Positions 14,234-48,132 of a DNA stretch of 64,000 nucleotides are shown here, piece by piece. Source of the DNA: Cryptosporangium arvum DSM 44712. Lineage in GTDB: Bacteria; Actinomycetota; Actinomycetes; Mycobacteriales; Cryptosporangiaceae. Position 1 is the stretch's first letter, and each line of letters begins with the position of its first letter. The stretch is from the NCBI RefSeq assembly GCF_000585375.1, contig NZ_KK073874.1, positions 6,230,894 to 6,294,893 of the forward strand, written 5' to 3'. The translations under genes were made by a program, and so were the position numbers. The notes beneath the pieces are model-generated. The model searched no databases. It saw nothing but the letters and a program-made list of their open reading frames with translations, and was not told the origin of the DNA.

Positions 14234-14267
14234 GAGTCCTCCTCGGCTTCGGATGCTTCAGGCACCA

Positions 14268-14290
14268 AGTACCGTATGGTACTCAGTACC
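14268..14290. promoter_or_regulatory. Probable TetR operator between SDR and TetR genes
   Basis: AGTACC-GTAT-GGTACT (14268-14283) is a perfect inverted repeat. It overlaps a second one, GGTAC-TCA-GTACC (14278-14290), giving three alternating half-sites. Its position in the divergent intergenic region is the usual place for autoregulation by the adjacent TetR protein. Confidence 0.7.
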
Positions 14291-14309
14291 ACATTGCTAG
14301 AGTGGAGGC

Positions 14310-14927
14310 ATGTCACTGCGCGAACGCAAACGGCAGCAGGCGCGCGAGCGCATCGTGGGGGCGGCTTACGACCTGTTCGCCGAACGCGGATTCGACGCGG
14401 TCACCGTCGCGGACATCGCCGCTCGTGCGGAGGTCGGCCGCACCACGTTCTTCCGCTACTTCGGTGACAAGCAGGAGGTCGTGTTCGCCGACGAGCAGCG
14501 CCACGCCGATCGACTGGGCGCGGTGCGGGAGTCGACCGACGGGGACGCCACGACCCTGCCCGCGGCGATGGTCCTGGTACGCGCGATCGTGCTGGCGATC
14601 AGCGAGGAGGTCGTGGCCGATCCGGTCCGGTACGCCGCGCACGACCGCCTGGTCAACCGGCACCCCGAGCTGCGCGACCGGATGCACCGCAAACACGACC
14701 ATCTCACCGGCGTTCTCGAGGAGACACTCGCCGCGCGCGGCGCCGATCCCGGGATGGCGGCGCTGGCCGCGCGCCTGGGCATCGCCTGCTTCGAAGCGGC
14801 CCGCCGTACCGCTGCCGGCGACGCAGCCGCCCTGTCCGCCGCGCTGCTCCACAACTTCGACACGCTCGACGAGCTCGGCTCCGCCCCGGTCAGCGCGGAG
14901 CCGGTCGTGAGCCGGGCACGCCGGTGA
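14310..14927 (+). CDS. TetR-family regulator
   Basis: A 205-residue protein with an N-terminal TetR helix-turn-helix: RERIVGAAYDLFAERGFDAVTVADIAARAEVGRTTFFRYFGDKQEVV (residues 12-58). A helical ligand domain follows. The FFRYF form is typical of the AcrR-like subgroup that controls neighbouring oxidoreductases. A GGAGG lies very close to the ATG (one base spacing), so initiation may be weak or leaderless. It is divergent from the SDR at 13307 and likely represses it through the palindromes at 14268. Confidence 0.9.
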   Translation: MSLRERKRQQARERIVGAAYDLFAERGFDAVTVADIAARAEVGRTTFFRYFGDKQEVVFADEQRHADRLGAVRESTDGDATTLPAAMVLVRAIVLAISEEVVADPVRYAAHDRLVNRHPELRDRMHRKHDHLTGVLEETLAARGADPGMAALAARLGIACFEAARRTAAGDAAALSAALLHNFDTLDELGSAPVSAEPVVSRARR

Positions 14928-34562: not shown

Positions 34563-35708
34563 GTGCTGGGGGAACGGTGTGCGGAGACGGTGCTGATCGG
34601 ACGGGACCGGGAGCTGGGGGCGCTCCGGTCGCTGCTGGAGCGCACGGCGGCCGGTCGGCTGACGCTGGCGGTCGTGGAGGGCGCGCCGGGCGCCGGCAAG
34701 ACACGGCTGCTGCAGGAGTTCGTCCGGATCGCGCGGCGGCGTGGGGCGTCGACCGCGCGGGAGACCGACTGGATCGACGGCAGCGGCATGTGGCGGATCG
34801 TCGCGTCCGGACGCGGCGACGGGCCGTCCGGACCGGGGGTGGGGACCGGGCCGCGGCTGCTCACCTGTGAGCATCCGCAGTGGATCCACCCGCGGGTCTG
34901 GCCCGAGCTGGAGGCGATCGCGCGTACGGTCCCGCTCCTGGTGGTGCTGACGCGACGCACCGGGGCGAGCGGGCCCGAGCTCGCCGACCCGCACCGGCTG
35001 GTGCTCGGGCCGCTGTCGGGGCCGGCGGTGAGCGCGTTGCTCGGGACGCTCGTCGGCGCGGTTCCGGACGCCGAGTTGCGTTCGCTCGCGGAGGTGGCCG
35101 GCGGCAACCCGCAGGCGCTCGAGGACCTGGTGACCGGCCTCCGCGAGGAAGCTCTGCTGGGGCTGCCCGCCCCGGCCCGGCTGCCCGCCAGGACCCGCGC
35201 ACGGCTCGACGCGACGCTCGCGGGTCTGTCGCCGACGGCACGGCACCTGGTGCAGGTGGCGTCGACCCTCGGAGTGCGGTTCGACGTGCGCGAGCTGGCC
35301 GGTCGGCTGCACCGCAGCGCCGCGTCGCTGGTGCCTGCCGTGCACGAGGCGATCACGTCGGGGCTGGTGGTGGGCGTCGAGGACGCGCTGCGGTTCCGGC
35401 ACGAACTGGTGCGGGCGGCGGCCGAGGAGTCGCTGCCCCGCCCGGTGCGCCGCGCCCTCCGGGACGAACGCGCACCGGCTCGCCGGGCCGACCCGGCGAC
35501 GGGTCGAGGCTGGGACGGACTGAGCGAACCCGAGCGGCGGGTCGCGGCGCTCGCGGGCTGCGGGCTGACGAATCAGCAGATCGCGCGGCGGATCGAGCGG
35601 TCCCCGCACACCGTGAACTTCCACCTGCGCCAGGTCTTCCGGAAGCTCGGCGTCGCCTCGCGGACCGAACTCGCCCACACCTACGCCGCCAGCGCGCTCA
35701 GCACCTGA
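34563..35708 (+). CDS. Compact LuxR/LAL-type ATPase regulator
   Basis: A 381-residue protein from GTG 34563 (GGAGGGGGAT upstream). Walker A GAPGAGKT (40-47) is in a STAND-like ATPase domain. Walker B is degenerate (LLTCEHPQWIHPRVWPEL in place of the usual DDAHWAD). Sensor region VPLLVVLTRR and winged-helix-like SPTARHLVQVASTLG follow. A C-terminal LuxR HTH (about 318-375) has LSEPERRVAALAGCGLTNQQIARRIERSPHTVNFHLRQVFRKLGV. LAL regulators are usually about 900 residues; here the long TPR region is absent. It converges on the biosynthetic operon, overlapping the last gene by 28 bases, and is a candidate pathway regulator. Confidence 0.85.
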   Translation: MLGERCAETVLIGRDRELGALRSLLERTAAGRLTLAVVEGAPGAGKTRLLQEFVRIARRRGASTARETDWIDGSGMWRIVASGRGDGPSGPGVGTGPRLLTCEHPQWIHPRVWPELEAIARTVPLLVVLTRRTGASGPELADPHRLVLGPLSGPAVSALLGTLVGAVPDAELRSLAEVAGGNPQALEDLVTGLREEALLGLPAPARLPARTRARLDATLAGLSPTARHLVQVASTLGVRFDVRELAGRLHRSAASLVPAVHEAITSGLVVGVEDALRFRHELVRAAAEESLPRPVRRALRDERAPARRADPATGRGWDGLSEPERRVAALAGCGLTNQQIARRIERSPHTVNFHLRQVFRKLGVASRTELAHTYAASALST

Positions 35709-36319
35709 TCGGTGGTCGGCGTCACCGCGCAGCGGCGGGCGGCGTACCACAGCGCCCATCGGTGTTCCTCGGCGCTGAAGTCGGCGACGGCGTCGGCCAC
35801 GAGGAACGGCTGGACGTCGTACGCGTAGGCGTCGGCCGCGGTGAGCAGGCAACCGATGTGGGCGAACACGCCGCAGACGATCAGCTGGTCACGCCCGGCG
35901 GCGGCCAGGTCGGCCGCGAGCGTCGTCCGGTGGAACGCACTGTAGCGGTGCTTGATCAGCACCGCGTCGCCCGGCGCGGGCGCCACGGTCGGCTCGATCG
36001 CGCGGTCCCCGGCGTCGTCGGCCATGCCTGCGCCCCACACGTCGTGCAGCAGCCCGCGGTCGGTGCGGGACATGCGGCCGGGCTGGGCGCTGTGCACGAC
36101 CGGTATCCCGCGGGCGGCCGCGGCGTCCTTGAGCCGCCGGACGTTCGCCAGCAGCTCGACCGTCGGCGAGCGGCCGGGTGGGAGGAACCCGAGGAAGTAG
36201 CCCTGCATGTCGTGCACGAGCAGCACCGCTCGCGCCGGGTCGGGCCGCCAGCCGGCCGGGCCGGCGCTCAGCTCGGCCGCGGTCGGCATCGGGTACGGAT
36301 CGATCGCCGGGATCGGCAC
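35681..36319 (-). CDS. phzD-like: PhzD/EntB-type isochorismatase (ADIC hydrolase)
   Basis: A 212-residue enzyme from GTG 36319 (AGGAGG upstream). It starts with the family's IPAIDPYPMPTAAEL. Catalytic Asp37 is in LLVHDMQGYF and Lys123 in LIKHRYSAF. At the position where other cysteine hydrolases have Cys it has Gly156 in GVFAHIGCL, diagnostic of isochorismatases. With a PhzE-type partner (41898) the predicted reaction is vinyl-ether hydrolysis of 2-amino-2-deoxyisochorismate to trans-2,3-dihydro-3-hydroxyanthranilate plus pyruvate. It is the last gene of the coupled seven-gene operon, 8 bases after the dehydrogenase. No aryl-carrier domain is attached, unlike EntB. Confidence 0.9.
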   Translation of the reverse strand: MPIPAIDPYPMPTAAELSAGPAGWRPDPARAVLLVHDMQGYFLGFLPPGRSPTVELLANVRRLKDAAAARGIPVVHSAQPGRMSRTDRGLLHDVWGAGMADDAGDRAIEPTVAPAPGDAVLIKHRYSAFHRTTLAADLAAAGRDQLIVCGVFAHIGCLLTAADAYAYDVQPFLVADAVADFSAEEHRWALWYAARRCAVTPTTDQVLSALAA

Positions 36320-36327
36320 GGGACCTC

Positions 36328-37062
36328 CTAGGCGCGGAGCGCGGCTCCGCCGTCGACGTACAGGTCGTGCATCGTGATGTGGCGGGCCCGGTCGGAGGCG
36401 AGAAAGACCACCGCGTCGGCGACGTCCGACGCCTCCGCGAGCCGTCCGAGCGGAATGCCGACGCGGTGCCGGTCCGGCGCGCCGCGCAGCGTGGCCTCGC
36501 GGTCGGCCGGGCCGGTCCACATGTCACGCAGCATCGGTGTGTCGGTCGAGCCCGGGGCCACCACGTTGCACCGGATCCCGAACTCGGCGAGCTCGAGCCC
36601 GAGGCAGCGCGTGAAGTGGGCCGCAGCCGCTTTGGAGGCCGCGTAGGCCGCCATCCCGCTGCGGGGCACGCCGGCGGCGTTGGAGGCGACGGTGACGATC
36701 GCGCCGCGGCGGCGGGGCACCATCCGCCGGGCGACGGCCCGGCTGACCCGGAACACTCCCCCGGCGTTGACGTCGAACACCCGGGCCCACTCGTCGTCGC
36801 CCAGGTCCACCGCCGGGCCGGTCGCGAGCACGCCGGCCACGTTCACCAGCACGTCGATCGCCCCGACCCGCGCCTCGATCCGGTCCACCGCCCGGTCGAC
36901 GGCGGCGGGGTCCCGGACGTCGAGGGTCACCGCCGCCGGGGCCTGCAGGTCGGCCGGTACGACCCGGCACCCTTCGGCGGTCAACGCGGTCACCACCGCC
37001 GCCCCGATCCCGCCCGCGGCCCCGGTGACCAGCGCCACCGTGCCCTCCAGCCCGGTGCTCAC
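36328..37062 (-). CDS. entA-like: EntA/DhbA-like dehydrogenase (SDR), predicted dihydro-hydroxyanthranilate oxidation
   Basis: A 244-residue SDR. It has [12 protein letters not shown] (14-25), acidic Asp38 after strand 2 (NAD preference), [33 protein letters not shown] with the Tyr-x3-Lys pair, [13 protein letters not shown], and the EntA-like C-terminus [18 protein letters not shown]. EntA homologues aromatise 2,3-dihydro-2,3-dihydroxybenzoate. Beside PhzD/PhzE homologues the expected substrate is dihydro-3-hydroxyanthranilate, giving 3-hydroxyanthranilic acid. It overlaps the upstream monooxygenase by four bases. Confidence 0.88.
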
Positions 37063-38021
37063 CGGTCACCCCCGGCGGCCAGCCGCTGGTCCCGGGCGCG
37101 CTGCTCCGGACCGTCCGGGAGGTGGTTGTCGATGCCCGCACGCCGCACCGCCTCGGCCAGGGCGGTCGCGCGAGGAGTGCGCTCCGCGTCGTAGCGGGCC
37201 AGCGCGGCGTCGATCGACGGTGCCGCCGCCAGGCACGAGGCCAGCGCGTCGGCGTCGAGCAGCGCCTGGGACGCGCCCTGGGCCAGGTAGGGCAGCATCG
37301 GGTGGGCGGCGTCCCCGACCAGCGCCACCCGTCCCGCGACCCGGCGGGGCAGCGGCGCCCGGTCGCACAGCTCGTGCCGCACCGGCGCCCGGCCCCGGGC
37401 CAGCAGTTCCCGGACGTCGGCGTGCCAGGCGTCGAACGAGGACCCGACGGCCACGACGTTGAGCACGCCGGGCGCGATCGGGTAGCTGACGCAGTGCTGA
37501 CCGGGCCCCAGCCAGACGCGGACCCGCGGCGGATCGGGCCACGGGGCCCGCACCAGCACGCGCCGGGCGAACACGCCGGACGTCCGTACCTCGTCCGCCG
37601 CCACCGCCCGACGCACCACCGACCGCAACCCGTCGGCCCCGACGACCAGGTCGGCCGGGACGCTGCGGCCACTCGACAGGTGGACCGCGTCGGACACCCC
37701 CACGCAGCGCGCGCGGCGCACCGGGACACCGGCTCCCAGCGCGCGATGCAGATCCGCGCGGCGCATCGCGGCGTACGGTGCCTCGAGCGGCGTCCGGGCG
37801 ATCAGCGCGCCGGAGTCCCAGCGGCGCAGCTCCCGGAACGCCGGCCGCACCGCGAACGACAGGTCGACGCCCCACCGCTCCAGCAGCCGCACCGCGGCCG
37901 GCCCGAGCTGGAGGCCGTACCCGGACGGCGGGGAGCCCTGCTCCAGCACGACGCACGGCACGCCGAGCGCGCGGGCCGTGGCCAGCCCGGCGATTCCTCC
38001 ACCCACCACGACGATCCTCAT
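37059..38021 (-). CDS. FAD-dependent aromatic monooxygenase
   Basis: A 320-residue flavoprotein of the salicylate-hydroxylase type. It has the GxGxxG dinucleotide motif [16 protein letters not shown] (3-18), the DG motif [15 protein letters not shown], and the GD motif [28 protein letters not shown]. It is shorter than typical 390-residue members, with a trimmed C-terminus. In the operon it overlaps both neighbours (one and four bases). Likely role: ring hydroxylation (possibly decarboxylating) of an aminophenolic acid or of the final heterocycle; the sequence does not say which. Confidence 0.88.
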
Positions 38022-39259
38022 CAGTAGTACCGCAGGGCGGTGTCCCAGTCCTCGCCCGGACCGAACAGCGACCGTGGTTTCAGCACGTCCGACCACGCGG
38101 TCAGCCGGGCGACCGGCACCAGGCCGCCCGGCGGGACCGCGGTCACCCGGACGTCGCCGATCGCGGCGGTCAGGTCCGCGCAGGCGGCCGCCCGGTACCG
38201 GTCGGCGACCTCGATCTGCAGTTCCAGCCGCTCCCCGGTCCGCGCGCGCCAGAACAGCACGCCGTACTCGGCCGGCAGCGAGAACACGTGGTCGTCCAGC
38301 TCGGCTTCGGTCAGTGCGCCGGAACGACCGAGCACCCGGACGTCGGGCAGCCACCAGCCGCACGCGCAGTCGCGGTAGGACACCTCGACCTCGTCCTCGA
38401 TCGCGTAGCGCAGCAACGGCATCGCCTCCCGGTAGAGCGGCGTGACGACGAGCCGACCCCGCCCGGCCGGGGTGATCTCCCCGGTGACCGGGTCGTGGAC
38501 CTCGCACACCACCCGGTCGGCCCACAGGTGCAGCCGTCCTTCCGGGCAGGCCCCGGCCAGGCTCCCGGCTTCGGTCGCGCCGTACTCCTCGACGACCGGC
38601 ACCCCCCACAGCTCCTCGATCCGGGCCCGGCGGGCCCGGCCGAGCCGGTCACCGCCGACGAACAACGCACGCAGCGCGGGGAAATCGTGGGCCGGCGAGT
38701 ACCCGGCCAGCCGCGCGGCCGCCGCCCAGAGCAGCGTCTCGGTCGCCAGCGACCAGGTGACCGTCACGTCGAGGTCGTGCAGCACCCGCACCAGCCGGGC
38801 GTAGGGCATCGCCAGCGACCGGTTGTCGGCCGGCACCACGGTCGCGCCGGCGCGGCGGGCGGCCGCGTGCGCCAGGTGCCCGGTGATCATCAGCGCGTAC
38901 GGCGTCCGCACCAGGAACGTGTCGTCGGCGCGGAGGCCCACGTGCTTGCGCGCGTAGCGGCTCGCGAGGTCGTCCCAGTCGGCGTCGGTGTAGTACGACG
39001 CGGTGGGCGAACCGGTGCTGCCGCTGGACTCGTGATAGGTCGCCAGTGCGGCGCGCTCGACCGCCAGCAGGCCGAACGGGTAGGCGTCGCGGAGGTCGGC
39101 TTTGGTCGTGAGCGGCGCGTCGGCGAGCGTCGGCGGCACGCCCCGGGCGGCGTAGAACGGCGACTTCGACGCGGACGTGAGCACCGCGTCCAGCCGCGGG
39201 CGCTGGAGCCGGGCCAGCTCCTCGAACGAGGACCAGTCCCCGAGTGCGGGCAGGGTCAT
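38021..39259 (-). CDS. PaaK-like AMP-forming ligase
   Basis: A 412-residue adenylate-forming enzyme. The P-loop-like motif is SSGSTGSPT (78-86), A5 motif EEYGATEAGS (224-233), A7-like LLRYAIEDEVEV, a Cys pair DCACGWW (298-303) as in phenylacetate-CoA ligases, and catalytic Lys394 in DVLKPRSLFG. It activates an aryl carboxylate as AMP or CoA ester. Its partner, the amidohydrolase-fold gene, overlaps by four bases. Ligase plus amidohydrolase is the pair known to form the benzoxazole ring in nataxazole- and caboxamycin-type pathways. The acid activated here would be 3-hydroxyanthranilate or 3-amino-4-hydroxybenzoate. Confidence 0.88.
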   Translation of the reverse strand: MTLPALGDWSSFEELARLQRPRLDAVLTSASKSPFYAARGVPPTLADAPLTTKADLRDAYPFGLLAVERAALATYHESSGSTGSPTASYYTDADWDDLASRYARKHVGLRADDTFLVRTPYALMITGHLAHAAARRAGATVVPADNRSLAMPYARLVRVLHDLDVTVTWSLATETLLWAAAARLAGYSPAHDFPALRALFVGGDRLGRARRARIEELWGVPVVEEYGATEAGSLAGACPEGRLHLWADRVVCEVHDPVTGEITPAGRGRLVVTPLYREAMPLLRYAIEDEVEVSYRDCACGWWLPDVRVLGRSGALTEAELDDHVFSLPAEYGVLFWRARTGERLELQIEVADRYRAAACADLTAAIGDVRVTAVPPGGLVPVARLTAWSDVLKPRSLFGPGEDWDTALRYY

Positions 39260-39993
39260 GACTCCCCCAGTAAGCGGCGGGCGTTGGTGTCGGTGACCGC
39301 GCGGTAGGTCGGGCGGTCGAGGTCGAGGGCCGCGAGTTTGACCAGCTCGACGCGGGGATCCTGGAGCGGGTACTCGGTACCGAACAGCACCCGGCCGGGC
39401 CCGAGGCGGGCCAGCGCCAGGCGCGCGACGGCGGTGAACGCGCCGGAGAGTTCGGCGGCGACGTTCGGGTGCGGCGCGAGGACCGCGAGGCCGCGCGCGT
39501 CGAGGCCGGTGGAGCCGCAGTGGCCGAACACGAAGTCGACGCGCGGGAAGGCGCGGGCCAGTGCGGCCAGGTCCGCCGCCCGGGTACCGGGGCGGCCCAG
39601 GCACACCGTGTAGACGGGGTGCCGGTGGGTCGCGGCCGTCGCCACCAGGTCGCGCACGCGCGGGTCGTCGTAGCGGAAGCCGTGGACCGCCGGGGAGATC
39701 TCCAGGCCGCGGTACCGGTCCGCCGCCGTCGCGTAGGCCTCGGCGTCGGCGAACGGGTCGGCGAAGAAGAACGGCAGCAGCGCGCCGCCACTGCCCCGCG
39801 CGGCGGCCAGCACCGCGGTGTTGTCCGCCGCCGGCCCCGGCTCGGCCCGGTCGGCGGTGATCCGCTCGGAGAGCTCGTCCAGCGTGACGAGGCCACCCGC
39901 GCAGACCGCGGCGCGGGCGATGCCGGCCGCGCCCATCGCGTCGCGCAGCCCTGCGTCGAGCCGGGCGTGGAAGTCGATCACTGCTCGTGACAC
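39256..39993 (-). CDS. Amidohydrolase-fold protein, putative benzoxazole-type cyclase
   Basis: A 245-residue TIM-barrel protein of the amidohydrolase-2 (ACMSD-like) group: VIDFHARLD at the start, strands with RHPVYTVCLG (His125), VDFVFGHCGS (His158), and RVLFGTEYPL near the end. The usual HxH metal pair is His9-x-Arg11, and the final Asp ligand of FGSDYP is Glu207 in FGTEYP. The metal site is therefore altered, and ordinary hydrolysis is doubtful. It sits between the ligase (4-base overlap) and the dehydroquinate-synthase-II gene (16-base overlap). By analogy to benzoxazole pathways it should close the oxazole ring. Confidence 0.82.
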   Translation of the reverse strand: MSRAVIDFHARLDAGLRDAMGAAGIARAAVCAGGLVTLDELSERITADRAEPGPAADNTAVLAAARGSGGALLPFFFADPFADAEAYATAADRYRGLEISPAVHGFRYDDPRVRDLVATAATHRHPVYTVCLGRPGTRAADLAALARAFPRVDFVFGHCGSTGLDARGLAVLAPHPNVAAELSGAFTAVARLALARLGPGRVLFGTEYPLQDPRVELVKLAALDLDRPTYRAVTDTNARRLLGES

Positions 39994-41015
39994 AGTTCGT
40001 CGATCGGGTACCCCACGTGCCGGGCCCGCTCGGGCAGGTGGCCCAGCAGCGAGTCCCCCGGCCGCAGCGCGGTGGAGTTCAGCACCCGCGCCCCCGGCCC
40101 CAGCAGCCGCACGTGCCAGTCGTCCTGCACGATCAGGTTCACCGGTTCACCCGACCCGGCCACCGCGGAGATCGAGAGCAGCGGCCGCGTCTCGATCTTC
40201 ACCCGCCCCACCGTCACCGGCCGGGTCCGGCCGTCGGCGCCCACCGCGAGCACGGTGCTGCCCGCACGCACCTCGCTCAGGTACCGGGTCCGGGCGTCGT
40301 CGGCCAGCGTGTACGACATGATCGCGCCGGCGTTCACCCGGAACGGCCGGGTCGGCATGTACGGCAGCGGATGCGTCTCGCTCACGCACAGCACCAGCGC
40401 CCTGGCTCGCGACCCGACCAGGATCCCCTCGTCCTGCGCCAGGTAGGTGCACGTGTCGACGCAGGCCCGCTCGCCCGTCCCGGCGTGCGCGACGCCGGTC
40501 ACGGTCAGCGTCTCCAGCGGCAGGGCCGGGGTGCGGCGCCGCAGCGCCGCGGCCAGCCGGGTGCAGTCCCCCGGCCGCGCCGCGGCCAGCATCACCGCCC
40601 CCGGACCGTGTTCGAGCACCCCGGCGTGCACCGCCGCCTCGTCCACGTCGTCCACCACGGTGACGACCAGCCCGTCGGCGTCGGCCGCCGCGGCCAGCAC
40701 GATCTCCAGCGGGATGTTCGTGGGATCGGTGAACCGCAGCACCGTGCACGGGTCGCGGCGCGCGCTCGCGCAGGCCTCGGCCAGGCTGTCGGCGTCGTCG
40801 ACCGTGAGACACCGCGCGACGAGGTCGGCGACCCCGGTCCCGGCCGGGAGCTCGGGCCCCTTCGGGGCCAGCACCCGTTTCACCGTCGGCGGCACCGCCG
40901 CCAGGTCGTCCGCCCCGTCGGCCACGATCGCGTCGAAACCGCAGTGCAGTGCTTCTTCGCGGACGACGTCGGTCAGGTCGCCGAGCCCGCGGGTGTCGAG
41001 CCAGAGCCCGGTCAT
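39978..41015 (-). CDS. griH-like: 3-dehydroquinate synthase II family (GriH-like 3-amino-4-hydroxybenzoate synthase)
   Basis: A 345-residue protein of the archaeal-type dehydroquinate synthase II family. Recognisable blocks are DPTNIPLEIVLAAA, ETLTVTGVAHAGTGERACVDTC, GILVGSRARALVLCVSETHPLPYMPTRPFRVNAGAIMSY and RYLSEVRAGSTVLAVG. In actinomycetes this family's known member GriH turns the GriI product into 3-amino-4-hydroxybenzoate. The GriI-like gene lies directly upstream with a 4-base overlap, making that role much more likely than shikimate synthesis. Confidence 0.9.
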   Translation of the reverse strand: MTGLWLDTRGLGDLTDVVREEALHCGFDAIVADGADDLAAVPPTVKRVLAPKGPELPAGTGVADLVARCLTVDDADSLAEACASARRDPCTVLRFTDPTNIPLEIVLAAAADADGLVVTVVDDVDEAAVHAGVLEHGPGAVMLAAARPGDCTRLAAALRRRTPALPLETLTVTGVAHAGTGERACVDTCTYLAQDEGILVGSRARALVLCVSETHPLPYMPTRPFRVNAGAIMSYTLADDARTRYLSEVRAGSTVLAVGADGRTRPVTVGRVKIETRPLLSISAVAGSGEPVNLIVQDDWHVRLLGPGARVLNSTALRPGDSLLGHLPERARHVGYPIDELCHEQ

Positions 41016-41809
41016 CGCGCCACCGCCGCCGGCCGCCCGTGCACCAGCGCGGAGAGCCGCCGCACCCGCTCGCCGGGATCGTCGGCGGTGAACACGAACC
41101 GCCCGGCCGCCACCCCGCCCGCCCCGCCGTGCACCGCGCTCAGCAACTGCTCGAACGTCTCCTCCGGGTCGGCCGACGCCCCACCGGCCGCGATCACCGG
41201 GATCGGGCAGGCCGCGGTGATCGCGGTGACCTCGCCCGACGACGACGGCAGCGCGGTCTTCACCAGGTCCGCGCCGAGCTCGGCCGCGATCGTCACGGCG
41301 TGCGCGACGACGTCCGGGGCGTGCGGATCGGGCACCGCCGGGCCGCGGGCGTAGACCATCGCCAGCAACGGAAGACCCCAGCGGTCGCAGGCGTCGGCGA
41401 CCGCGGCCAGGTCGGCGATCTGGCGCTCCTCGGTGGCCGAGCCCACGTTCACGTGGACGCTCACCCCGTGGGCGCCGAGACGCAGGGCCTCCTCGACCCC
41501 GCAGACCAGGTACTTGGCGTCCGGATCGCCGGCCAGGCCGGTGCTGGCCGACAGGTGCACCAGCAGCGACAGCTCGCGGAACCGGTGCGGCCGCAGCCGG
41601 CGCACCGCGCCCTTGTGCAGGACGACGGCGTCCGCACCGGCGTCGGCGATCGTGCCGACCAGCCGATCCAGATGTCCACTGTGCGCGGCCGGACCCACGC
41701 TGATCGGATGGTCCAGCGGCACGATCAGCAACCGGCCGGAATCGCGGCGGTAGAGGTGCTGGAGCCGAACGCTCCGGGCGAAATTGATCACGCCGCCGAC
41801 GCTAGGCAA
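41012..41809 (-). CDS. griI-like: Class I aldolase, GriI-like (C7 aminophenol precursor synthase)
   Basis: A 265-residue DeoC/FbaB-type TIM barrel. It starts near VGGVINFARSVRLQHLYRR, with active-site Asp33 in IVPLDHPISVG, Tyr153 in MVYARG and Schiff-base Lys184 in ADLVKTALP. A phosphate-binding AAGGAS and GGVAAGRFVF follow. The known homologue GriI joins aspartate semialdehyde to dihydroxyacetone phosphate, the first step to 3-amino-4-hydroxybenzoate. It is the first gene of the seven-gene operon, reading away from the 88-bp divergent control region that holds the tandem palindrome. No clear Shine-Dalgarno precedes the ATG at 41809, so a leaderless or alternative start is possible. Confidence 0.9.
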   Translation of the reverse strand: MPSVGGVINFARSVRLQHLYRRDSGRLLIVPLDHPISVGPAAHSGHLDRLVGTIADAGADAVVLHKGAVRRLRPHRFRELSLLVHLSASTGLAGDPDAKYLVCGVEEALRLGAHGVSVHVNVGSATEERQIADLAAVADACDRWGLPLLAMVYARGPAVPDPHAPDVVAHAVTIAAELGADLVKTALPSSSGEVTAITAACPIPVIAAGGASADPEETFEQLLSAVHGGAGGVAAGRFVFTADDPGERVRRLSALVHGRPAAVAR

Positions 41810-41826
41810 TTCGACGCGCGGCGCCC

Positions 41827-41862
41827 ACTACTGATCCGGGTAGCACTACTCGATCGAGTAGT
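41827..41862. promoter_or_regulatory. Tandem 18-bp palindromic operator in the divergent biosynthetic promoter
   Basis: Two directly adjoining 18-mers: ACTACTGATCCGGGTAGC (41827-41844, imperfect) and ACTACTCGATCGAGTAGT (41845-41862, a perfect palindrome). They share the first six bases and the TAG in the right half. They lie in the middle of the 88-bp gap between the operon start (41809) and phzE-like (41898), so one regulator could govern both directions. Confidence 0.75.
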
Positions 41863-41897
41863 TGCGGCTCGGCCACCGCATTCGGCACAACAGAGGA

Positions 41898-43769
41898 ATG
41901 GAGGAAGAGAACACCGCGTTCGCCGTCATCAGCCGAAGTGATCGGGTGGAGGTGCTGACCGGTGCGGTGAGCGTCGTACCCCGGATCGCCGACCTGCCGC
42001 TGCCGGCACCGGGCGAGCCCGGCGTCCTCGCGATCGTGCCGTACCGGCAGATCACCGAGCGCGGGCTGGACGCCGTCGACGACCGCGAGCCGCTGGTGGC
42101 GATGACCGTCGCGACCGCCACGACGGTGCCGCTCGATTCCCTGCCCACGAGTGCGGGAACGCCGCTGACCGGCGGTTTCGACCTCTCCGACGACGAGTAC
42201 GCGGCGGCGGTGCGGCGCGTGGTCACCGACGCCATCGGGCAGGGCACCGGCTCGAACTTCGTGCTGCGGCGCTCGTTCCGGGCCGAGGTGCCGGGATGGT
42301 CGCGGCGGGTCGCGCTCGGTGTCTTCCGGCGGCTGGCCGAGCAGGAGCGCGGCGCCTACTGGACGTTCCTCGTGCACTGGAACGGACGGACGTTGATCGG
42401 CGCCACCCCCGAGCGGCAGGTGCGCTATGCCGGTGGAATCGCGACGATGAGCCCGATCAGCGGCACCTACCGGCATCCGGAGAACGGACCCGACGACCGC
42501 GGACTCCTCGCTTTTCTCGACGACCGGAAAGAGACCGAGGAATTGTTCATGGTCGTCGACGAGGAATTGAAGATGATGGCGCGGATCTGTGACCGGCCAC
42601 CCCGGCTGCGGGGACCGTGGCTGCGTCCGATGTCGAAGGTCACGCACACCGAGTACGCGGTCGAGGGCCCGGCGTCGCGGGATCCGCGTGACGTACTGGC
42701 ACGGACGCTCCCGGCGCCGACGGTGACCGGGAGTCCGCTGGCGGCGGCGTGCTCGGTGGTCGCGGAGCACGAGCGGGGCGGCCGCGGCTACTACGGTGGT
42801 GCGCTGGCGTGGTTCGGGTGGCGGGACGGGCGGCGCGTGCTGGACTCGGCGCTGCTCATCCGCACCGCCGACGTGCGTGCGGACGGCACGCTGACGCTGG
42901 GCGTCGGCTCGACGCTCGTCCGCCGCTCCGACCCGGCCGCCGAGGCCGCCGAGACCCGGGCCAAGGCCGAGGCCCTCCTGGCCGCGTTCGCACCGGCCGG
43001 CGTCGGCCCCGCACCGCTGCCTCCGGTCGCCGCGGGCGTGCCGGCCGCGCTGCGGCGTCGCAACCGGGGGCTCTCGCGGTACTGGCGCGGCGCCCGGCGC
43101 AGCCCGCCCCCGGAGCCGCCCGCGCGACGGATGGTGCTCGTCGACGCGGGCGACGACTTCACCGCGATGCTCGCCGCGATCGCCGGCTCGCTCGGCGTCG
43201 ACGTGGCCGTCCGCCCGGCCGGCGCACCGGACGACGCCCTCACCGCGGGGCTCGCGCCGGACGACCCGGTGCTGATCGGACCGGGCCCGGGCGACCCCCG
43301 CGACCTGACCGTGCCGCGCATCGCCCGCCTGCACACGATCACCCGCGCGGCGCTGACCGACCGGCGCCCCGTCCTCGCCGTCTGCCTGGGTCACCAGGTG
43401 CTCTGCCACACGCTCGGCCTGCCGATCCGGCGTCTGCCGGTGCCGGCGCAGGGCCTGCGTCGTCGTGTCGACTGGTGGGGCGACCCGGAGTGGCTGGGCT
43501 TCTACCACACGTTCGCCGCCGTCCACGGCAGCGACCGGTGGCGCTGCCCGGCGACCGGCGCCCCGGTCCGCCTCCTGCGCGACGCCCGGACCGGCGCCGT
43601 CCACGCGCTGGCCGCACCGCGGGTGCGATCGGTCCAGTTCCACGTCGAATCGGTGCTCACCGAACACGGACCGGCGATCCTGCGGCGGCTGCTGCGCGCG
43701 GTCACCGCCGAGGCGGCCCTCGCGCGGTGCCCGCAAACGGTGGCTAGCGGGAACCGTGGCAGCCGGTAA
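41898..43769 (+). CDS. phzE-like: PhzE-type 2-amino-2-deoxyisochorismate synthase (fused TrpE/TrpG)
   Basis: A 623-residue fusion. The N-terminal chorismate-binding domain (about 95-365) has GSNFVLRRSFRAEV, GAYWTFLVHWNGRTLIGATPERQV, ISGTYRHPENG and VVDEELKMMARICD. It also has the C-terminal-core motif SPLAAACSVVAEHERGGRGYYGGALAWFG, closely PhzE-like. The glutamine amidotransferase domain (about 410-620) has oxyanion motif GPGPGDPRDL, nucleophile Cys496 in VCLGHQVL and His582/Glu584 in QFHVES. It makes ADIC from chorismate and glutamine, without pyruvate loss. It is divergent from the operon holding PhzD and EntA-like enzymes that would finish 3-hydroxyanthranilate. Confidence 0.93.
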   Translation: MEEENTAFAVISRSDRVEVLTGAVSVVPRIADLPLPAPGEPGVLAIVPYRQITERGLDAVDDREPLVAMTVATATTVPLDSLPTSAGTPLTGGFDLSDDEYAAAVRRVVTDAIGQGTGSNFVLRRSFRAEVPGWSRRVALGVFRRLAEQERGAYWTFLVHWNGRTLIGATPERQVRYAGGIATMSPISGTYRHPENGPDDRGLLAFLDDRKETEELFMVVDEELKMMARICDRPPRLRGPWLRPMSKVTHTEYAVEGPASRDPRDVLARTLPAPTVTGSPLAAACSVVAEHERGGRGYYGGALAWFGWRDGRRVLDSALLIRTADVRADGTLTLGVGSTLVRRSDPAAEAAETRAKAEALLAAFAPAGVGPAPLPPVAAGVPAALRRRNRGLSRYWRGARRSPPPEPPARRMVLVDAGDDFTAMLAAIAGSLGVDVAVRPAGAPDDALTAGLAPDDPVLIGPGPGDPRDLTVPRIARLHTITRAALTDRRPVLAVCLGHQVLCHTLGLPIRRLPVPAQGLRRRVDWWGDPEWLGFYHTFAAVHGSDRWRCPATGAPVRLLRDARTGAVHALAAPRVRSVQFHVESVLTEHGPAILRRLLRAVTAEAALARCPQTVASGNRGSR

Positions 43770-43779
43770 CCTTTCCCGC

Positions 43780-46536
43780 GTGCCCGCGCCAGGCCCTCCC
43801 CCGCCGGTCGGCCGCGCCCGTGAACTCGACGTGCTGCGACGCGCCCTCCGCGACACCGCCGACGGCGCCGGCGGCTGCGCCGTCCTGACCGGACCGGCCG
43901 GGATCGGCAAGTCCCGGCTGCTCCAGGCCACCGTCGACGCGGCTCTCCGGATGCCGCTGCCGGTCGCGTTCCGGCGCGCGTTCGAACTCGACCGGGCCGT
44001 CGGGCTGATGACGCTCGGCTCGACGCTCCGCGGGTGCGTACCGCCCACCGACGCGTTCGCCTGGCTGGCGGGCGGGGCCGGCCGGTCGTTCGGCACGGTG
44101 GAGCGGCTCGGCGCGACCCTGGAGGCGCTGGCCGCCCGGCGCCCGCTGCTCGTCGTGATCGACGACGCCCACTGGACGGACGAGTTCAGCGCGGCCGCCC
44201 TCCGCCAGCTGATCCCGGCGCTGGCCTCGTCGCCGGTGCGGTGGCTGTTCGCCCGCCGCCCCGAACCGCTCGACACCCCCGGGCGGCGGCTGCTCGACTG
44301 GCTGGTCCAGGACGGCGCGGTCGAGCTGGCGCTGGGCCGGCTGGCCGACGAGGCGGTCGGCGAGCTCTGCGCCCAGGTGCTCGGGGCCGCGGTCGACGAC
44401 ACCGTGCTGGCCCTGGCCCGCGGTCTCGACGGCATCCCGCTGCAGATCACCCAACTCATGTCGTCGCTGCGGGTCACCGACCAGCTCGTGGTCGCCGACG
44501 GGGTCGCTTCGGTCGTGGGCACCGACCTGCCGTCGAGCTTCGTCGCGATGATCCGGCAGGTCCTCGACCAGCTGCCCGAGCCGACCCGCCGGCTGGTCCG
44601 GGCCGCCTCGGTGTTCGACCGGCCGGTCGGCGTCGACGAACTGGGCCGCCTGCTCGACCGGCGGCCGGCCGACCTGATCGGTCTGGTCGAGCAGGCCACC
44701 GCGGCCAGCGTGCTGACCGAGGAGGGCCGCGACCTCACGTTCGTCCACGACCAGGTGCGCCGAGCGGTCTACCACACGCTCAGCCCGTCGATCGCCGCCG
44801 TTCTCCACCAGGAGGCGGCCGCGATCGCCCGCGCCGACGGGCGCCGGCCGATGGAGATCGCCCGCCACCTCGTCGCCGGGGGCGCCGGCGGTCGCCGGGA
44901 CACCGTCGACCTGTTGCGTGCCGCCGCCCGGGACGTCGCCGACGTCGCCCCGAGCACCGCCGCGGACTTCGTCCGGCACGCCCTGGAGACGCTCGGCGAA
45001 CACGACCCCGGCCGCGATCCGCTGGTCGCGGAGGCGGTCGGCTACCTCGCCGCGGCCGGGCGGCTGACCGAGGCCCAGCAGCTGGGGCGCACCGTGCTGC
45101 GTGCCGGGCTCGACCGGGGCACCGAGGCCCTGCTGCTGCTCGGGCTGGCCGAGGCGTGCAAACACGCGGGCCGGAACGAGACCGCTGTCGACTACGCCGA
45201 CCAGGGCCTGGAACACGTGTCCGGCACCGATCCGGTGGCCGCCCGGCTCCACGCGATCCGGGCCCACGCGCTCGTCTACGCCGGGCCGCTCGCCGAAGCC
45301 GACCGCGCGGGTGAGCGCGCCGACACGATCGGGGAAGCGACCGGCAACCCGGGCGCGTCGGTGTTCGGTCGCACCGCGCGCAGCCTCGTCGCGCTGACCA
45401 CCGGCGACCTGGTGGCCGCGCACCGGCACGCGGCCGGAGCCGTCGAGCTCGCCGACGCCGCCGGTGGGGAGGCGCTCCAGCGGCACCCCCGGATCTGGCT
45501 GGCCGGCGCGCTGACCGCGCTCGACCGGTTCGCCGAGGCCGGGCGGGTGCTCGAGCGGGGCCGGGCGGAGTCCGAACGGCTGGGCACCGGCTGGTCGGCG
45601 CCGCTCTGGCACTACTACACCGCCGGGCTGCTCGCCGCCCGCGGCCAGCTCGACGAGGCGCTGGCCGAGGCCGACGCCGGGGTGGCGGTCGCCGAGCAGC
45701 TGGGCTCCCACCAGCTCGCGGTGCCGCTGCTCGCGACGCTGACCCGGCTGGCCGTCGACCGCGACGAACCGGCCGCCGCCGAGGACTACCTGGGCCGCAT
45801 GCACCGGCTCGTCCGCACCGGCATCACCGCCGCGCCCGAGGACGTCGACTGGGCCGAAGGCGTGCTCGTCGACGCCACCGCCGGACCGGCCGCCGCGATG
45901 CCGACGCTGGCCCCGCTCTACGACGTGCTGCCCGAGCGGCCGATGCTGGTCGCCCACGACCCCGGCACCGCGGCCACCCTGGTGCGGATCGCGCTGGCCG
46001 CCGACGACCCCGGCCGCGCCCGGACCGCCGCCGACGCCACCCGCGAGCTCGCCCGCCGCCATCCGGAGCTGCCCGCCCCGGCCGGGGCAGCGGCCCACGC
46101 CGACGGGCTGCGGCGCCGCGACCTGACGGCGCTGCGTGCCGCGATCGAGCACTTCCGGCGGACGCCGCGCCGCCTCGCGCTCGCCGCCGCGCTGGAGGAC
46201 GCCGCCGCACTCGCCGACGAACCCCACGTCGCCCGGGGCTGGCGGCGCGAGGCGTTGACGCTCGCGGTCGCCTGCGGAGCCCAGCGGGCCCGCCGGCGTC
46301 TCGAGCAACTCCTCGGCGTGGCCTCGGAGTCCGGGCTCGGCCGGCTCTCCCCGGCCGAGCGCCGGGTCGCGCTGCTCGTCGCCGACGGGCTGACCAACCA
46401 CCAGGTCGCCCAGCAGCTGCACCTGTCCCGGCACACCGTCGACAGCCACCTGCGCAAGATCTTCGCCAAGTGGGACATCCAGAGCCGGGTCGCGCTGGCG
46501 ATGATGGTGGCCACCGAGAATCACGGAAAGACGTGA
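43780..46536 (+). CDS. Large LuxR-family (LAL) ATPase regulator
   Basis: A 918-residue STAND regulator. Walker A is GPAGIGKS (38-45), Walker B RPLLVVIDDAHWTDE (about 120-135), a long TPR-like helical middle (about 370-830) and a C-terminal LuxR HTH: LSPAERRVALLVADGLTNHQVAQQLHLSRHTVDSHLRKIFAKWDI. GTG 43780 is chosen; in-frame GTG 43756 is also possible. It begins 10 bases after the PhzE-like stop and is probably cotranscribed. It is therefore the best candidate for the pathway-specific activator that binds the tandem palindrome. Confidence 0.92.
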   Translation: MPAPGPPPPVGRARELDVLRRALRDTADGAGGCAVLTGPAGIGKSRLLQATVDAALRMPLPVAFRRAFELDRAVGLMTLGSTLRGCVPPTDAFAWLAGGAGRSFGTVERLGATLEALAARRPLLVVIDDAHWTDEFSAAALRQLIPALASSPVRWLFARRPEPLDTPGRRLLDWLVQDGAVELALGRLADEAVGELCAQVLGAAVDDTVLALARGLDGIPLQITQLMSSLRVTDQLVVADGVASVVGTDLPSSFVAMIRQVLDQLPEPTRRLVRAASVFDRPVGVDELGRLLDRRPADLIGLVEQATAASVLTEEGRDLTFVHDQVRRAVYHTLSPSIAAVLHQEAAAIARADGRRPMEIARHLVAGGAGGRRDTVDLLRAAARDVADVAPSTAADFVRHALETLGEHDPGRDPLVAEAVGYLAAAGRLTEAQQLGRTVLRAGLDRGTEALLLLGLAEACKHAGRNETAVDYADQGLEHVSGTDPVAARLHAIRAHALVYAGPLAEADRAGERADTIGEATGNPGASVFGRTARSLVALTTGDLVAAHRHAAGAVELADAAGGEALQRHPRIWLAGALTALDRFAEAGRVLERGRAESERLGTGWSAPLWHYYTAGLLAARGQLDEALAEADAGVAVAEQLGSHQLAVPLLATLTRLAVDRDEPAAAEDYLGRMHRLVRTGITAAPEDVDWAEGVLVDATAGPAAAMPTLAPLYDVLPERPMLVAHDPGTAATLVRIALAADDPGRARTAADATRELARRHPELPAPAGAAAHADGLRRRDLTALRAAIEHFRRTPRRLALAAALEDAAALADEPHVARGWRREALTLAVACGAQRARRRLEQLLGVASESGLGRLSPAERRVALLVADGLTNHQVAQQLHLSRHTVDSHLRKIFAKWDIQSRVALAMMVATENHGKT

Positions 46537-46599: not shown

Positions 46600-48132
46600 G
46601 TGGCCGCAGACGCATCGGAAGCGCAGGTACTGATCGTCGGAGCGGGCTCCGTGGGGTCGATCCTGGCGTTGGAGCTGGCGCACCACGGGGTGCCGAGCGT
46701 CGTCGTGGACCGGGCCGTGAACCCGCCCCAGTCCTCCGACGTGGACTACCTGGACAGCCGCAGCATGGAGTTGATGCGGCGGCTGCGGCTGGCCGCGACG
46801 ATCCGCGCGCAGGGCGTCGGGCCGGAGAACTCCGGCGGCGTGGAGTGGCGGAGCCAGGGCCTCGACGAGCCACCGGTGCTCGTGCTCACGGTTCCGTCCC
46901 TCGACGAACTACGCGGCCGGTACGCGCAGGTCGAGGACGGCAGCGCACCGGTGGAGCTGCCGCAGCGGGTGTCCGGCGTCCGGCTCGCTACCGGGTTGCG
47001 GGCCGCCGTCGAGCACCACCCGCTGATCGACCTGCGCCTCGGCTGGACGTTCACCGGCCTGCGGGTCGACGGCGAGCGGGTCGTCGCGACCGCGATCGAC
47101 CGGGGCGCGGGGGCGGCCCGCCGCACCATCACGACCCGGTTCGTCGCCGGGTGCGACGGCGCCCGCAGCACGGTCCGCCAGTGCCTGGACATCCCGATGG
47201 CCGAGCTCACCGACCCGGTGCAGCACTGCTCGGTGTACTTCCGCAGCCCCGACCTGACCCGGCGGTTCACCGAACGGCGACCGTCGACGGTCATCGTCGG
47301 CACGCTGACGCTGGAGGCCCGCGCCGACGGGAGCGACACCTGGGTCGGTCACCTGCGGGTCGCGCCGGGCGATCCGGTCACCGCCGACCCGGAGGCGCTG
47401 CTGCGTGCCGGGCTGGGCCGCGCCGGGCTGGGCAACCGCCTGGAGACCGCCGAGATCCTCGACGTGACCCAGTGGGACGACGCCCTCGCGGTGGCCGACC
47501 GCTACCGCGCCGGGCCGGTGTTCCTGGTCGGGGAATCCGCGCACCGCTTCTACCCGGTCGGCGCCAACGCGGCGACGAGCGTCGGTGACGCGGTGGACCT
47601 CGGGTGGAAGCTGGCCGGTGTGCTCAACGGCTGGGGCGGCTCCGGGCTGCTCGACAGCTACGAGGCCGAGCGTCGCCCGCGGGCCCTGATGGACCGGGAG
47701 CTCGTCGCGCGCGGGCTGGAGACCCGGCGTCGCGTCGAGCGGCTGGCCGCCGCCGGGGCGTCGCGCGAGTTCCTCGCCGGCGTGCTGCGCCAGGAGATCG
47801 CACCCGACGACACCGGGCTCCCCGAGGGGCGGGCCCCGGCGGTGCGCCTCGACGACGGCACCCAGCTCTTCGACCGTCTCGGCCCGCAGTTCACGCTCGT
47901 CGACCTGACCGAGGACGAGGCCGGTCGCGCGCTGGTGCTCGTCGCGCGCCGGCGCGGGATCCCGATGGCCCACCTCGTCGTCACCGACCGGGCGGTGCGG
48001 ACCCGGTGGGACCGCCGGCTGGTGCTGGTCCGGCCCGACCAGCGCATCGCGTGGCGCGCCGACCACGCCCCGGCCGACTGGGACACGGTGCTCGACCGGA
48101 TCAGTGGCCACCTCGGTCCCGAAACCCCGTGA
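46600..48132 (+). CDS. FAD-dependent monooxygenase (PheA/TfdB/MhpA-like)
   Basis: A 510-residue flavin hydroxylase from GTG 46600 (GGAGGTCC upstream). It has AQVLIVGAGSVGSILALELA (8-27), active region DVDYLDSRSMELMRRL, DG motif FVAGCDGARSTVRQCL, and GD-type motif VFLVGESAHRFYPVGANAATSVGDAVDLGWKL (GES in place of GDA). A thioredoxin-like C-terminal domain (about 400-505) follows. The class hydroxylates phenols or polyketide aromatics. It lies 63 bases after the LuxR gene on the same strand and is a plausible tailoring enzyme of the cluster, though membership is inferred from position. Confidence 0.88.
   Translation: MAADASEAQVLIVGAGSVGSILALELAHHGVPSVVVDRAVNPPQSSDVDYLDSRSMELMRRLRLAATIRAQGVGPENSGGVEWRSQGLDEPPVLVLTVPSLDELRGRYAQVEDGSAPVELPQRVSGVRLATGLRAAVEHHPLIDLRLGWTFTGLRVDGERVVATAIDRGAGAARRTITTRFVAGCDGARSTVRQCLDIPMAELTDPVQHCSVYFRSPDLTRRFTERRPSTVIVGTLTLEARADGSDTWVGHLRVAPGDPVTADPEALLRAGLGRAGLGNRLETAEILDVTQWDDALAVADRYRAGPVFLVGESAHRFYPVGANAATSVGDAVDLGWKLAGVLNGWGGSGLLDSYEAERRPRALMDRELVARGLETRRRVERLAAAGASREFLAGVLRQEIAPDDTGLPEGRAPAVRLDDGTQLFDRLGPQFTLVDLTEDEAGRALVLVARRRGIPMAHLVVTDRAVRTRWDRRLVLVRPDQRIAWRADHAPADWDTVLDRISGHLGPETP

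Follow-up and report, generated by a model that had tools for sequence, protein, structure and literature searches.

Two routes to ortho-aminophenols, one ending in 3-hydroxyanthranilate and the other in 3-amino-4-hydroxybenzoate, appear to meet in a single gene cluster of Cryptosporangium arvum DSM 44712, and the question raised by this locus is what they might form together. The cluster lies in a stretch of 64,000 nucleotides (the window) of a 9.2 Mb genome that consists of one contig. An initial annotation of the window had suggested a mixed 2-aryl-benzoxazole, or else two products. Comparison with other genomes and with the literature leads to a different answer, namely that the cluster probably encodes a version of the diazepinomicin core pathway without prenylation and makes a dibenzodiazepinone. 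The core genes were also seen in several Micromonosporaceae without the prenyltransferase of the diazepinomicin type.

Gene calls, Pfam and NCBIfam models and matches in the PDB bear out the inventory of eight genes at 35681-43769 given in the initial annotation, both in coordinates and in families. Seven of them form a minus-strand operon, whose junctions are, in order, overlaps of 4, 16, 4, 1 and 4 bp followed by a gap of 8 bp. The first two genes represent the 3-amino-4-hydroxybenzoate route: a GriI-like aldolase (41012-41791; Pfam DeoC and NCBIfam NF005556 above cut-off, with TIGR01949 and the BagB/FevI model scoring below their own cut-offs) and a GriH-like 3-amino-4-hydroxybenzoate synthase (39978-41015; PF01959, 333 bits), which is the only match of the dehydroquinate synthase II (DHQS II) family in the whole genome. 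They are followed by an amidohydrolase-fold protein (39256-39993), a PaaK-like adenylating ligase of the NatL2/AjiA1 type (38021-39259) and an aromatic hydroxylase dependent on flavin adenine dinucleotide (FAD), here called the operon FMO (37059-38021). The 3-hydroxyanthranilate route is represented by an EntA-like short-chain dehydrogenase/reductase (SDR; 36328-37062), which passes two 2,3-dihydro-2,3-dihydroxybenzoate dehydrogenase equivalogs (TIGR04316 and NF006074, both above cut-off) and is predicted to convert 2,3-dihydro-3-hydroxyanthranilate (DHHA) to 3-hydroxyanthranilate, by a PhzD-like isochorismatase (35681-36319; Pfam, PDB 1nf9), predicted to form DHHA from 2-amino-2-deoxyisochorismate (ADIC), and by a divergent PhzE-like ADIC synthase on the plus strand (41898-43769), which joins a chorismate-binding to a glutamine amidotransferase part and matches PDB 3r74 with 508 bits. 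The residues quoted in the initial annotation (PhzE C496/H582/E584, PhzD D37/K123/G156 and GriI K184, in its numbering) are all present, and the gene content supports its view that two different aminophenol routes feed one ligase. It had also held that a flavin hydroxylase completes the set; the operon FMO is indeed there, but a second FAD aromatic hydroxylase, FMO2 (46600-48132, plus strand; FAD_binding_3 and Rng_hyd_C, RebC-like), had been overlooked, as had the genes of two LuxR-type regulators.

The gene set is not a chance grouping, since it recurs in other genomes. When 200 related genomes were searched with the window amidohydrolase, 48 gave some match, and the strong matches (at least 54% identity) came from the window genome, its congeners G002 and G003 and a Glycomyces genome (G069), with no amidohydrolase match in a third congener (G001). 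In G002 the entire block from FMO2 to LuxR1, a regulatory gene at the far end of the operon, is present in unchanged order with all nine biosynthetic genes. Glycomyces likewise holds all nine (37-62% identity), the operon order GriI-GriH-amidohydrolase-ligase-FMO-EntA-PhzD being identical, and has in addition an aspartokinase gene ahead of griI and a class-II 3-deoxy-D-arabino-heptulosonate 7-phosphate (DAHP) synthase gene past phzE. A wider scan of GTDB genomes with a four-sequence amidohydrolase alignment gave 64 loci; it made use of two short peptide patterns, and because one of them, EISPAVHG, includes Glu98 and favours window-type relatives, ratios within this sample are not natural frequencies. 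Gene presence in the loci was scored by tblastn bit-score thresholds on the stored DNA, and absences are weak in the nine loci shorter than 20 kb. The set of GriI, GriH, ligase, PhzE, PhzD and EntA is complete in 27 of the 64 loci, from several families, and 21 loci hold both flavin hydroxylases as well; PhzE occurs in 34. In a quick maximum-likelihood tree, where support is the Shimodaira-Hasegawa-like approximate likelihood ratio (SH-aLRT) only, the window falls into a clade of 18 rows (support 99) with G002 and 16 loci of Micromonosporaceae. Matches to GriI, GriH, the ligase and the operon FMO were found in all 16 of these loci, and to FMO2 in 15.

One link to diazepinomicin is the prenyltransferase. 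The ABBA prenyltransferase family PF11468 was sought in 35 genomes, namely those of the window (G000), G002 and G003 and the genomes behind 33 of the 64 loci (one genome carrying two loci). Twelve contained it. Its distance from the amidohydrolase is 5.5-21.7 kb on the same contig in 11 of the twelve and 56 kb in the other, and all 11 prenyltransferase-bearing rows of the tree lie within one group of 16 rows (support 98). The genome of Phytohabitans suffuscus holds both types of cluster, one without the prenyltransferase (L039) and one with it (L063).

Another is the gene order of the cluster in Micromonospora chalcea DSM 43026. Its first arm consists of genes of the mevalonate type, namely a GHMP-kinase fragment, diphosphomevalonate decarboxylase, a GHMP kinase, an FMN_dh protein and the reductase and synthase of 3-hydroxy-3-methylglutaryl-CoA (HMG-CoA), which are followed by a 296-aa prenyltransferase, a histidine kinase, a response regulator, two DUFs, a multicopper oxidase, a glyoxalase and a small unscanned open reading frame (ORF). 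The core then has PhzE divergent from aspartokinase-GriI-GriH-amidohydrolase-ligase-FMO-EntA-PhzD, and past PhzD lie an SDR, DUF6081, a symporter, FMO2 and DAHP synthase. In the diazepinomicin cluster, the prenyltransferase gene orf11 is flanked by orf10 (HMG-CoA synthase) and orf12 (sensor), and its product DzmP has 296 aa; ring A was shown by feeding to be 3-hydroxyanthranilate, whose enzymes resemble PhzE, PhzD and MxcC (PMC3871700). Its orf33, orf19, orf27 and orf26 have been described as homologues of lim3-6, and the assayed Lim6 and Lim5 make ADIC and DHHA, respectively (PMC5958127). If the M. chalcea prenyltransferase is counted as orf11, PhzE becomes 19, EntA 26, PhzD 27 and DAHP synthase 32, numbers that agree with PMC5958127 except for the last. 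Numbers 20 to 25 then fall to aspartokinase, GriI, GriH, amidohydrolase, ligase and FMO. The gene order of M. chalcea fits the account of the diazepinomicin cluster in the passages of PMC3871700 compared, and the condition that the initial annotation had named against itself, a known cluster with the same eight genes and another product, is closely approached by this stand-in. The annotation had further stated that described benzoxazole clusters use one aminophenol source; this is true of the benzoxazole clusters in the literature compared, but the dual set sits within clusters of the diazepinomicin type (PMC3871700, PMC5958127).

The same clusters bear on whether the two routes run together. 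The chorismate route is supplied by DAHP synthase, and aspartokinase leads to aspartate semialdehyde, from which 3-amino-4-hydroxybenzoate is stated to derive (PMC12118335). Since supply genes for both routes share the clusters of M. chalcea and Glycomyces, their gene content argues for the joint running of the two.

By sequence alignment, the amidohydrolase homologue of the window (245 aa, Amidohydro_2) has an altered metal site: the HxH motif has become HxR (Arg11) and the strand-5 histidine is replaced by Val130, His9, His158 and Glu207 being retained, and Glu98 stands where intact-type actinobacterial relatives carry Lys. The profile alignment sets Val130 against the His of 'YIHPA' in LigW-type decarboxylases, though in a weak stretch of 11 bits, Glu207 against an Asp and His158 against the His of 'GHMG'; we take the aligned residues of these decarboxylases to be metal ligands, and the order of the motifs fits that in NatAM, the amidohydrolase of nataxazole biosynthesis. 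The ligands of NatAM are His75, His77, His253 and Asp345, and its catalytic residue is His290 (PMC7204872). The window protein therefore seems to have lost its metal site, within which Arg11 and Glu98 might now pair. Most of the weak PDB profile matches are decarboxylases of the hydroxybenzoate type; a decarboxylase role was set aside, since the metal ligands are substituted.

Among the 64 loci the combination H11-K98-H130 was found in 8 and R11-E98 in 56, a ratio biased by the scan pattern containing Glu98; 52 of the latter have Val at position 130, two have Ala and two His (the state of one locus, L072, was set by hand). All 34 PhzE-bearing loci have both Arg11 and Val130. The eight H11-type loci, among them Nocardiopsis lucentensis and Hyalangium, are set apart from the other rows of the tree by one branch (support 96), and PhzE, PhzD, EntA and FMO are all absent from their stored DNA. 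Among the aligned rows of distant Amidohydro_2 relatives, Lys98 occurs in 14 of 18 and His130 in 12 of 19; polarising position 11 in the same way failed, as three rows align there, all with Arg. Two gammaproteobacterial metagenome-assembled genomes (L082, L086) give matches to GriI, GriH, amidohydrolase, ligase and FMO, with an intermediate amidohydrolase (Arg11, Glu98, His130) and a ligase that has Asp at the position of NatL2 residue 235. Two distant Amidohydro_2 proteins (L006, L010) read D-H-x-R with Arg at positions 130 and 158, and possibly represent another metal-less amidohydrolase group.

Intact homologues were met in myxobacteria. A search of 96 genomes of the Hyalangium family with the Hyalangium amidohydrolase gave a match in 13. 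All 13 myxobacterial proteins placed in the alignment (one being the Hyalangium locus itself and two more near-copies) keep His9, His11, His130, His158 and Glu207. Of eight regions examined, five from five genomes (L116, L117, L118, L119, L121) have the order ligase-amidohydrolase-ligase-GriH-GriI, which is that of the pfx closoxazole cluster (PMC12118335); L122 differs by the strand of one ligase, and L120 shows no GriI or GriH. In clusters with the pfx order, the amidohydrolase shares about 30% identity with that of Hyalangium. The remaining region, L115 (7767-15844), combines GriI, GriH, aspartokinase, FMO, a single ligase with Asn235 and an amidohydrolase with the intact histidines, unlike both the closoxazole and the diazepinomicin-type sets.

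The ligase of the window matches AjiA1 (493 bits) and NatL2 (480 bits) in the PDB, followed by ClxA (164 bits); entry 9s3l was identified as ClxA, as Y218, Y219, T222 and N226 fall where PMC12519233 states. It is 59% identical to NatL2 over the aligned columns and keeps the four zinc ligands (C, H, C, C) and Lys418. In NatL2, Glu235 binds the 3-OH of the 3-hydroxyanthranilate donor (PMC7204872). This residue is Glu in the window and in all 32 readable PhzE-bearing loci, Asp in all 8 H11-type loci, Glu in 18 and Asp in 3 of the other readable R11 loci (three loci were unread), and Asn in all eight aligned pfx-like myxobacterial ligases.

It is against these residues that the mixed 2-aryl-benzoxazole has to be weighed, in which the ligase would join both aminophenols and the amidohydrolase close the ring with an arginine standing in for the zinc. 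The close relationship of the ligase to NatL2, the occurrence of the amidohydrolase family in closoxazole-type gene orders and the retained His9, His158 and Glu207 all agree with it, and this half of the predicted ring-forming pair, the ligase, stands. The other half is not supported: the amidohydrolase does not appear NatAM-like, and two of its histidine ligand positions are Arg and Val, invariably so in the PhzE-bearing relatives. No chain named NatAM appeared among its PDB matches, either with the single sequence (4 chains, E<=10) or with a 58-sequence profile (12 chains), the presence of NatAM in that copy of the PDB not having been checked. Moreover, the same core lies within diazepinomicin-type prenyltransferase clusters, and a benzoxazole would leave both FMO2 and a hydroxylase of the carboxyl-removing type without an obvious role. 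The benzoxazole proposed in the initial annotation must accordingly be regarded as unlikely.

If the product is instead a dibenzodiazepinone, the 3-amino-4-hydroxybenzoate has to become ring B. In the literature, ring B of diazepinomicin was proposed to derive from 3-amino-5-hydroxybenzoate (PMC3871700, PMC6524458); in the literature passages compared, its origin is a guess, and the prenyltransferase is the only individual enzyme tested. No aminotransferase-type 3-amino-5-hydroxybenzoate synthase was found among the M. chalcea genes examined (by Pfam, and by BLAST against the window and Glycomyces genes), and the cluster does contain GriI and GriH. Because these two are present and no gene resembling such a synthase is, the gene content points to 3-amino-4-hydroxybenzoate as the ring-B precursor. 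This compound would fit the 6,8-dihydroxy pattern of diazepinomicin if its carboxyl were exchanged for a hydroxyl and one further hydroxylation took place. A literature search found no open-access paper assigning ring B to 3-amino-4-hydroxybenzoate among the matches listed, subscription papers being outside the search, and passages of papers naming both diazepinomicin and amino-4-hydroxybenzo- compounds draw no link between them. A candidate for the exchange is the operon FMO, whose 36 PDB matches (among them 8rqh, 8x38, 8gsm, 8uiq and 4bjy) place it near decarboxylating hydroxylases of vanillate, 4-hydroxybenzoate and 6-hydroxynicotinate, and also near tropone and salicylate monooxygenases.

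Every reaction in the following scheme is a prediction, as are the sequence of steps, the product and the part played by the amidohydrolase. PhzE, PhzD and the EntA-like SDR would make 3-hydroxyanthranilate, the future ring A, and GriI and GriH 3-amino-4-hydroxybenzoate. The operon FMO would replace the carboxyl of the latter by a hydroxyl and FMO2 would add another, giving 2-amino-6-hydroxy-hydroquinone or the corresponding quinone as ring B. The NatL2-like ligase would adenylate 3-hydroxyanthranilate and hand it to the ring-B aminophenol, perhaps first as an ester, as NatL2 does. The metal-less amidohydrolase homologue would then permit or assist an O-to-N acyl shift to the amide, ring closure on the quinone carbonyl, or both. 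The ring-B phenol left free would allow oxidation to the quinone, with which the ring-A amine would condense to the diazepine. The predicted product is 4,6,8-trihydroxy-dibenzodiazepin-11-one (C13H10N2O4), with a calculated mass of 258.064 Da; addition of a farnesyl group gives 462.25, equal to the mass listed in PMC7692728.

The part assigned to the amidohydrolase has a parallel in the chemistry of its relatives. NatL2 makes the ester first; the hemiorthoamide collapses to the amide in solution, whereas the zinc centre of NatAM dehydrates it to the benzoxazole (PMC7204872). PfxB, too, apparently accepts the ester (PMC12118335). An amide outcome would become available if the metal centre is lost, and a diversion of the intermediate to the amide by this loss would explain why a benzoxazole-type pair is found inside diazepinomicin-type clusters. 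It is conceivable, and we offer it tentatively, that the benzoxazole pair was re-purposed by dismantling the metal centre, that the protein now catalyses, without a metal, either the O-to-N acyl shift or the closing of the diazepine ring, and that diazepinomicin itself takes ring B from 3-amino-4-hydroxybenzoate and not from 3-amino-5-hydroxybenzoate. A literature search for metal-free enzymes of the amidohydrolase fold yielded nothing drawn on here.

A number of observations weigh against a pathway of the diazepinomicin type in the window. In a profile search PF11468 is absent from the window genome and from both G002 and G003, and neither DAHP synthase nor aspartokinase is among the scanned window genes. 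Aspartokinase is also present in seven of the eight intact-metal loci, which lack 3-hydroxyanthranilate genes. FMO2 lies downstream in M. chalcea, unlike in the window, and the divergent arm of Glycomyces differs too, with FMO2 next to the operon arm and then PhzE, and no LuxR match. The assignment by orf numbers has a mismatch of one unit (DAHP synthase 32 here, orf33 in PMC5958127), and the orf list of that paper, taken as printed, would exchange the assignments of orf19 and orf26. The diazepinomicin core has, besides, been reported from a Streptomyces cluster described as having little homology or synteny to the known one (PMC6524458). As to the amidohydrolase, the preponderance of R11-E98 loci is subject to the scan bias noted above, and of the 13 aligned myxobacterial homologues six have Lys at position 98, six Met and one Leu; because Lys98 is thus Met or Leu in 7 of 13, the K98E change alone says nothing of metal loss. 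Since L115 pairs an FMO with the intact histidine set, the FMO does not require an R11-type amidohydrolase. The Glu/Asp change in the ligase arose about twice on the tree, and no significance was reached when PhzE was set against position 235 in an independent-pairs test.

The remaining objections concern the window clade itself. PhzE and PhzD are found in 10 of its 16 loci and EntA in 7, so that 6 and 9, respectively, are without these genes nearby. Such loci may be supplied by PhzE-like genes elsewhere, which were found in 16 of 17 genomes (13 of the 16 outside the genus of the window), or by kynureninase; the latter as a substitute source proved uninformative, with a match in 24 of 25 genomes, 21 of them above cut-off. 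The operon FMO has 320 aa in the window, according to our own gene caller, as against 345-437 aa in ten aligned relatives (376 in G002), and it is missing at its place in G003, whose block is otherwise the same. Because the operon FMO is short or missing and PhzE, PhzD and EntA vary in the clade, the cluster may make a near relative of the diazepinomicin core and not the core itself. Pushed further, the same facts would suggest a related but distinct product in this genus, formed with a short or inactive FMO from an acceptor that retains its carboxyl, namely an amide or a carboxylated diazepine; this appears improbable, given that an FMO match is present in all of the 16 other loci of the clade and that the alignment retains what we take to be the GxGxxG, DG and GD motifs. 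Two separate products, or a phenoxazinone-type coupling, are most improbable: many loci show just one route in their stored DNA, and ortho-aminophenols couple oxidatively, but there is a single operon with one ligase and one amidohydrolase, 27 of the 64 loci, from several families, hold both routes in full, and a Pfam scan of 18 window genes gave no oxidase resembling phenoxazinone synthase.

The cluster is flanked by two regulatory genes on the plus strand. LuxR1, a LuxR-type regulator (34563-35708), is matched with at least 150 bits in 8 of the 16 window-clade loci, and LuxR2, a LuxR-type AAA regulator (43831-46536) that lies between phzE and FMO2 in the window clade, with 300 bits or more in 15. 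Nine of 11 annotated loci have a conserved protein of some 200 aa beside FMO2 (L036 486-1103 and L041 1024-1635, both on the minus strand, with equivalents in L037, L042, L044, L045, L048, L051 and L083); two members scanned gave no Pfam match, and no match to it was found in the window. In Phytohabitans maris (L037), a PhzF-family gene (13846-14616, minus strand) lies beside PhzD and EntA is missing, which hints that DHHA may there be handled as in phenazine synthesis or in some other altered way. L054 and L070 hold amidohydrolase-ligase-FMO sets with GriI and GriH absent from the stored DNA, L070 being without 3-hydroxyanthranilate genes there as well.

Among known systems, two were considered and put aside. 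Mycemycin is a dibenzoxazepinone whose clusters carry an amidohydrolase, but its precursors are tied to tryptophan dioxygenase and kynureninase, and MyeD is much longer, a 1410-bp deletion fitting inside myeD (PMC5867642). Ahbamycin derives from 3-amino-4-hydroxybenzoate, and the main text of the paper contains neither 'hydroxyanthranil' nor 'amidohydrolase'. The bagremycin and ferroverdin proteins BagE/FevW and BagB/FevI provide the top NCBIfam models for the window ligase and GriI, and BagC/FevH the second for GriH, all with scores below the family cut-offs; bagremycin is an ester of 3-amino-4-hydroxybenzoate with vinylphenol (PMC11093986). The clusters for nataxazole, AJI9561, A33853 and microechmycin share with the window the 3-hydroxyanthranilate block and a ligase of the NatL2/AjiA1 group, but GriI and GriH are unmentioned in the descriptions compared (PMC7204872, PMC9864271), and NatAM, an enzyme of about 490 residues whose zinc site is intact (PMC7204872), was not among the named PDB chains matched by the 245-aa protein. 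The closoxazole clusters clx and pfx have GriI, GriH, an adenylating ligase and a small amidohydrolase, as in the window, and the ClxA structure 9s3l aligns to the window ligase, but their five described genes include two ligases and none for 3-hydroxyanthranilate (PMC12118335, PMC12519233); the myxobacterial homologues in or near the pfx order, unlike the window, keep the histidine ligands and have Asn at position 235.

The closest likeness is to diazepinomicin (ECO-4601/TLN-4601; Micromonospora 046Eco-11, S. griseoflavus Tu4000), which shares with the window the PhzE/PhzD/MxcC-like route to 3-hydroxyanthranilate (PMC3871700, PMC5958127) and reached a phase II cancer trial (PMC3871700). The M. 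chalcea cluster, a stand-in for the original one, has the same divergent phzE and the same operon order, with proteins 39-63% identical to those of the window (FMO2 39%), the FMO being short in the latter. The window differs from the diazepinomicin type in having two LuxR-type regulators and no ABBA prenyltransferase, DAHP synthase, aspartokinase, two-component system or mevalonate genes, no mevalonate family being found in the ten flanking genes scanned with Pfam. Marks such as Arg11/Val130 in place of two histidines of the amidohydrolase, and Glu in place of Asp or Asn at position 235 of the ligase, could aid cluster mining in telling such clusters from those for benzoxazoles. For diazepinomicin itself, the comparison names a candidate ring-B precursor (3-amino-4-hydroxybenzoate), a candidate carboxyl-removing hydroxylase and a candidate ring-closing protein.

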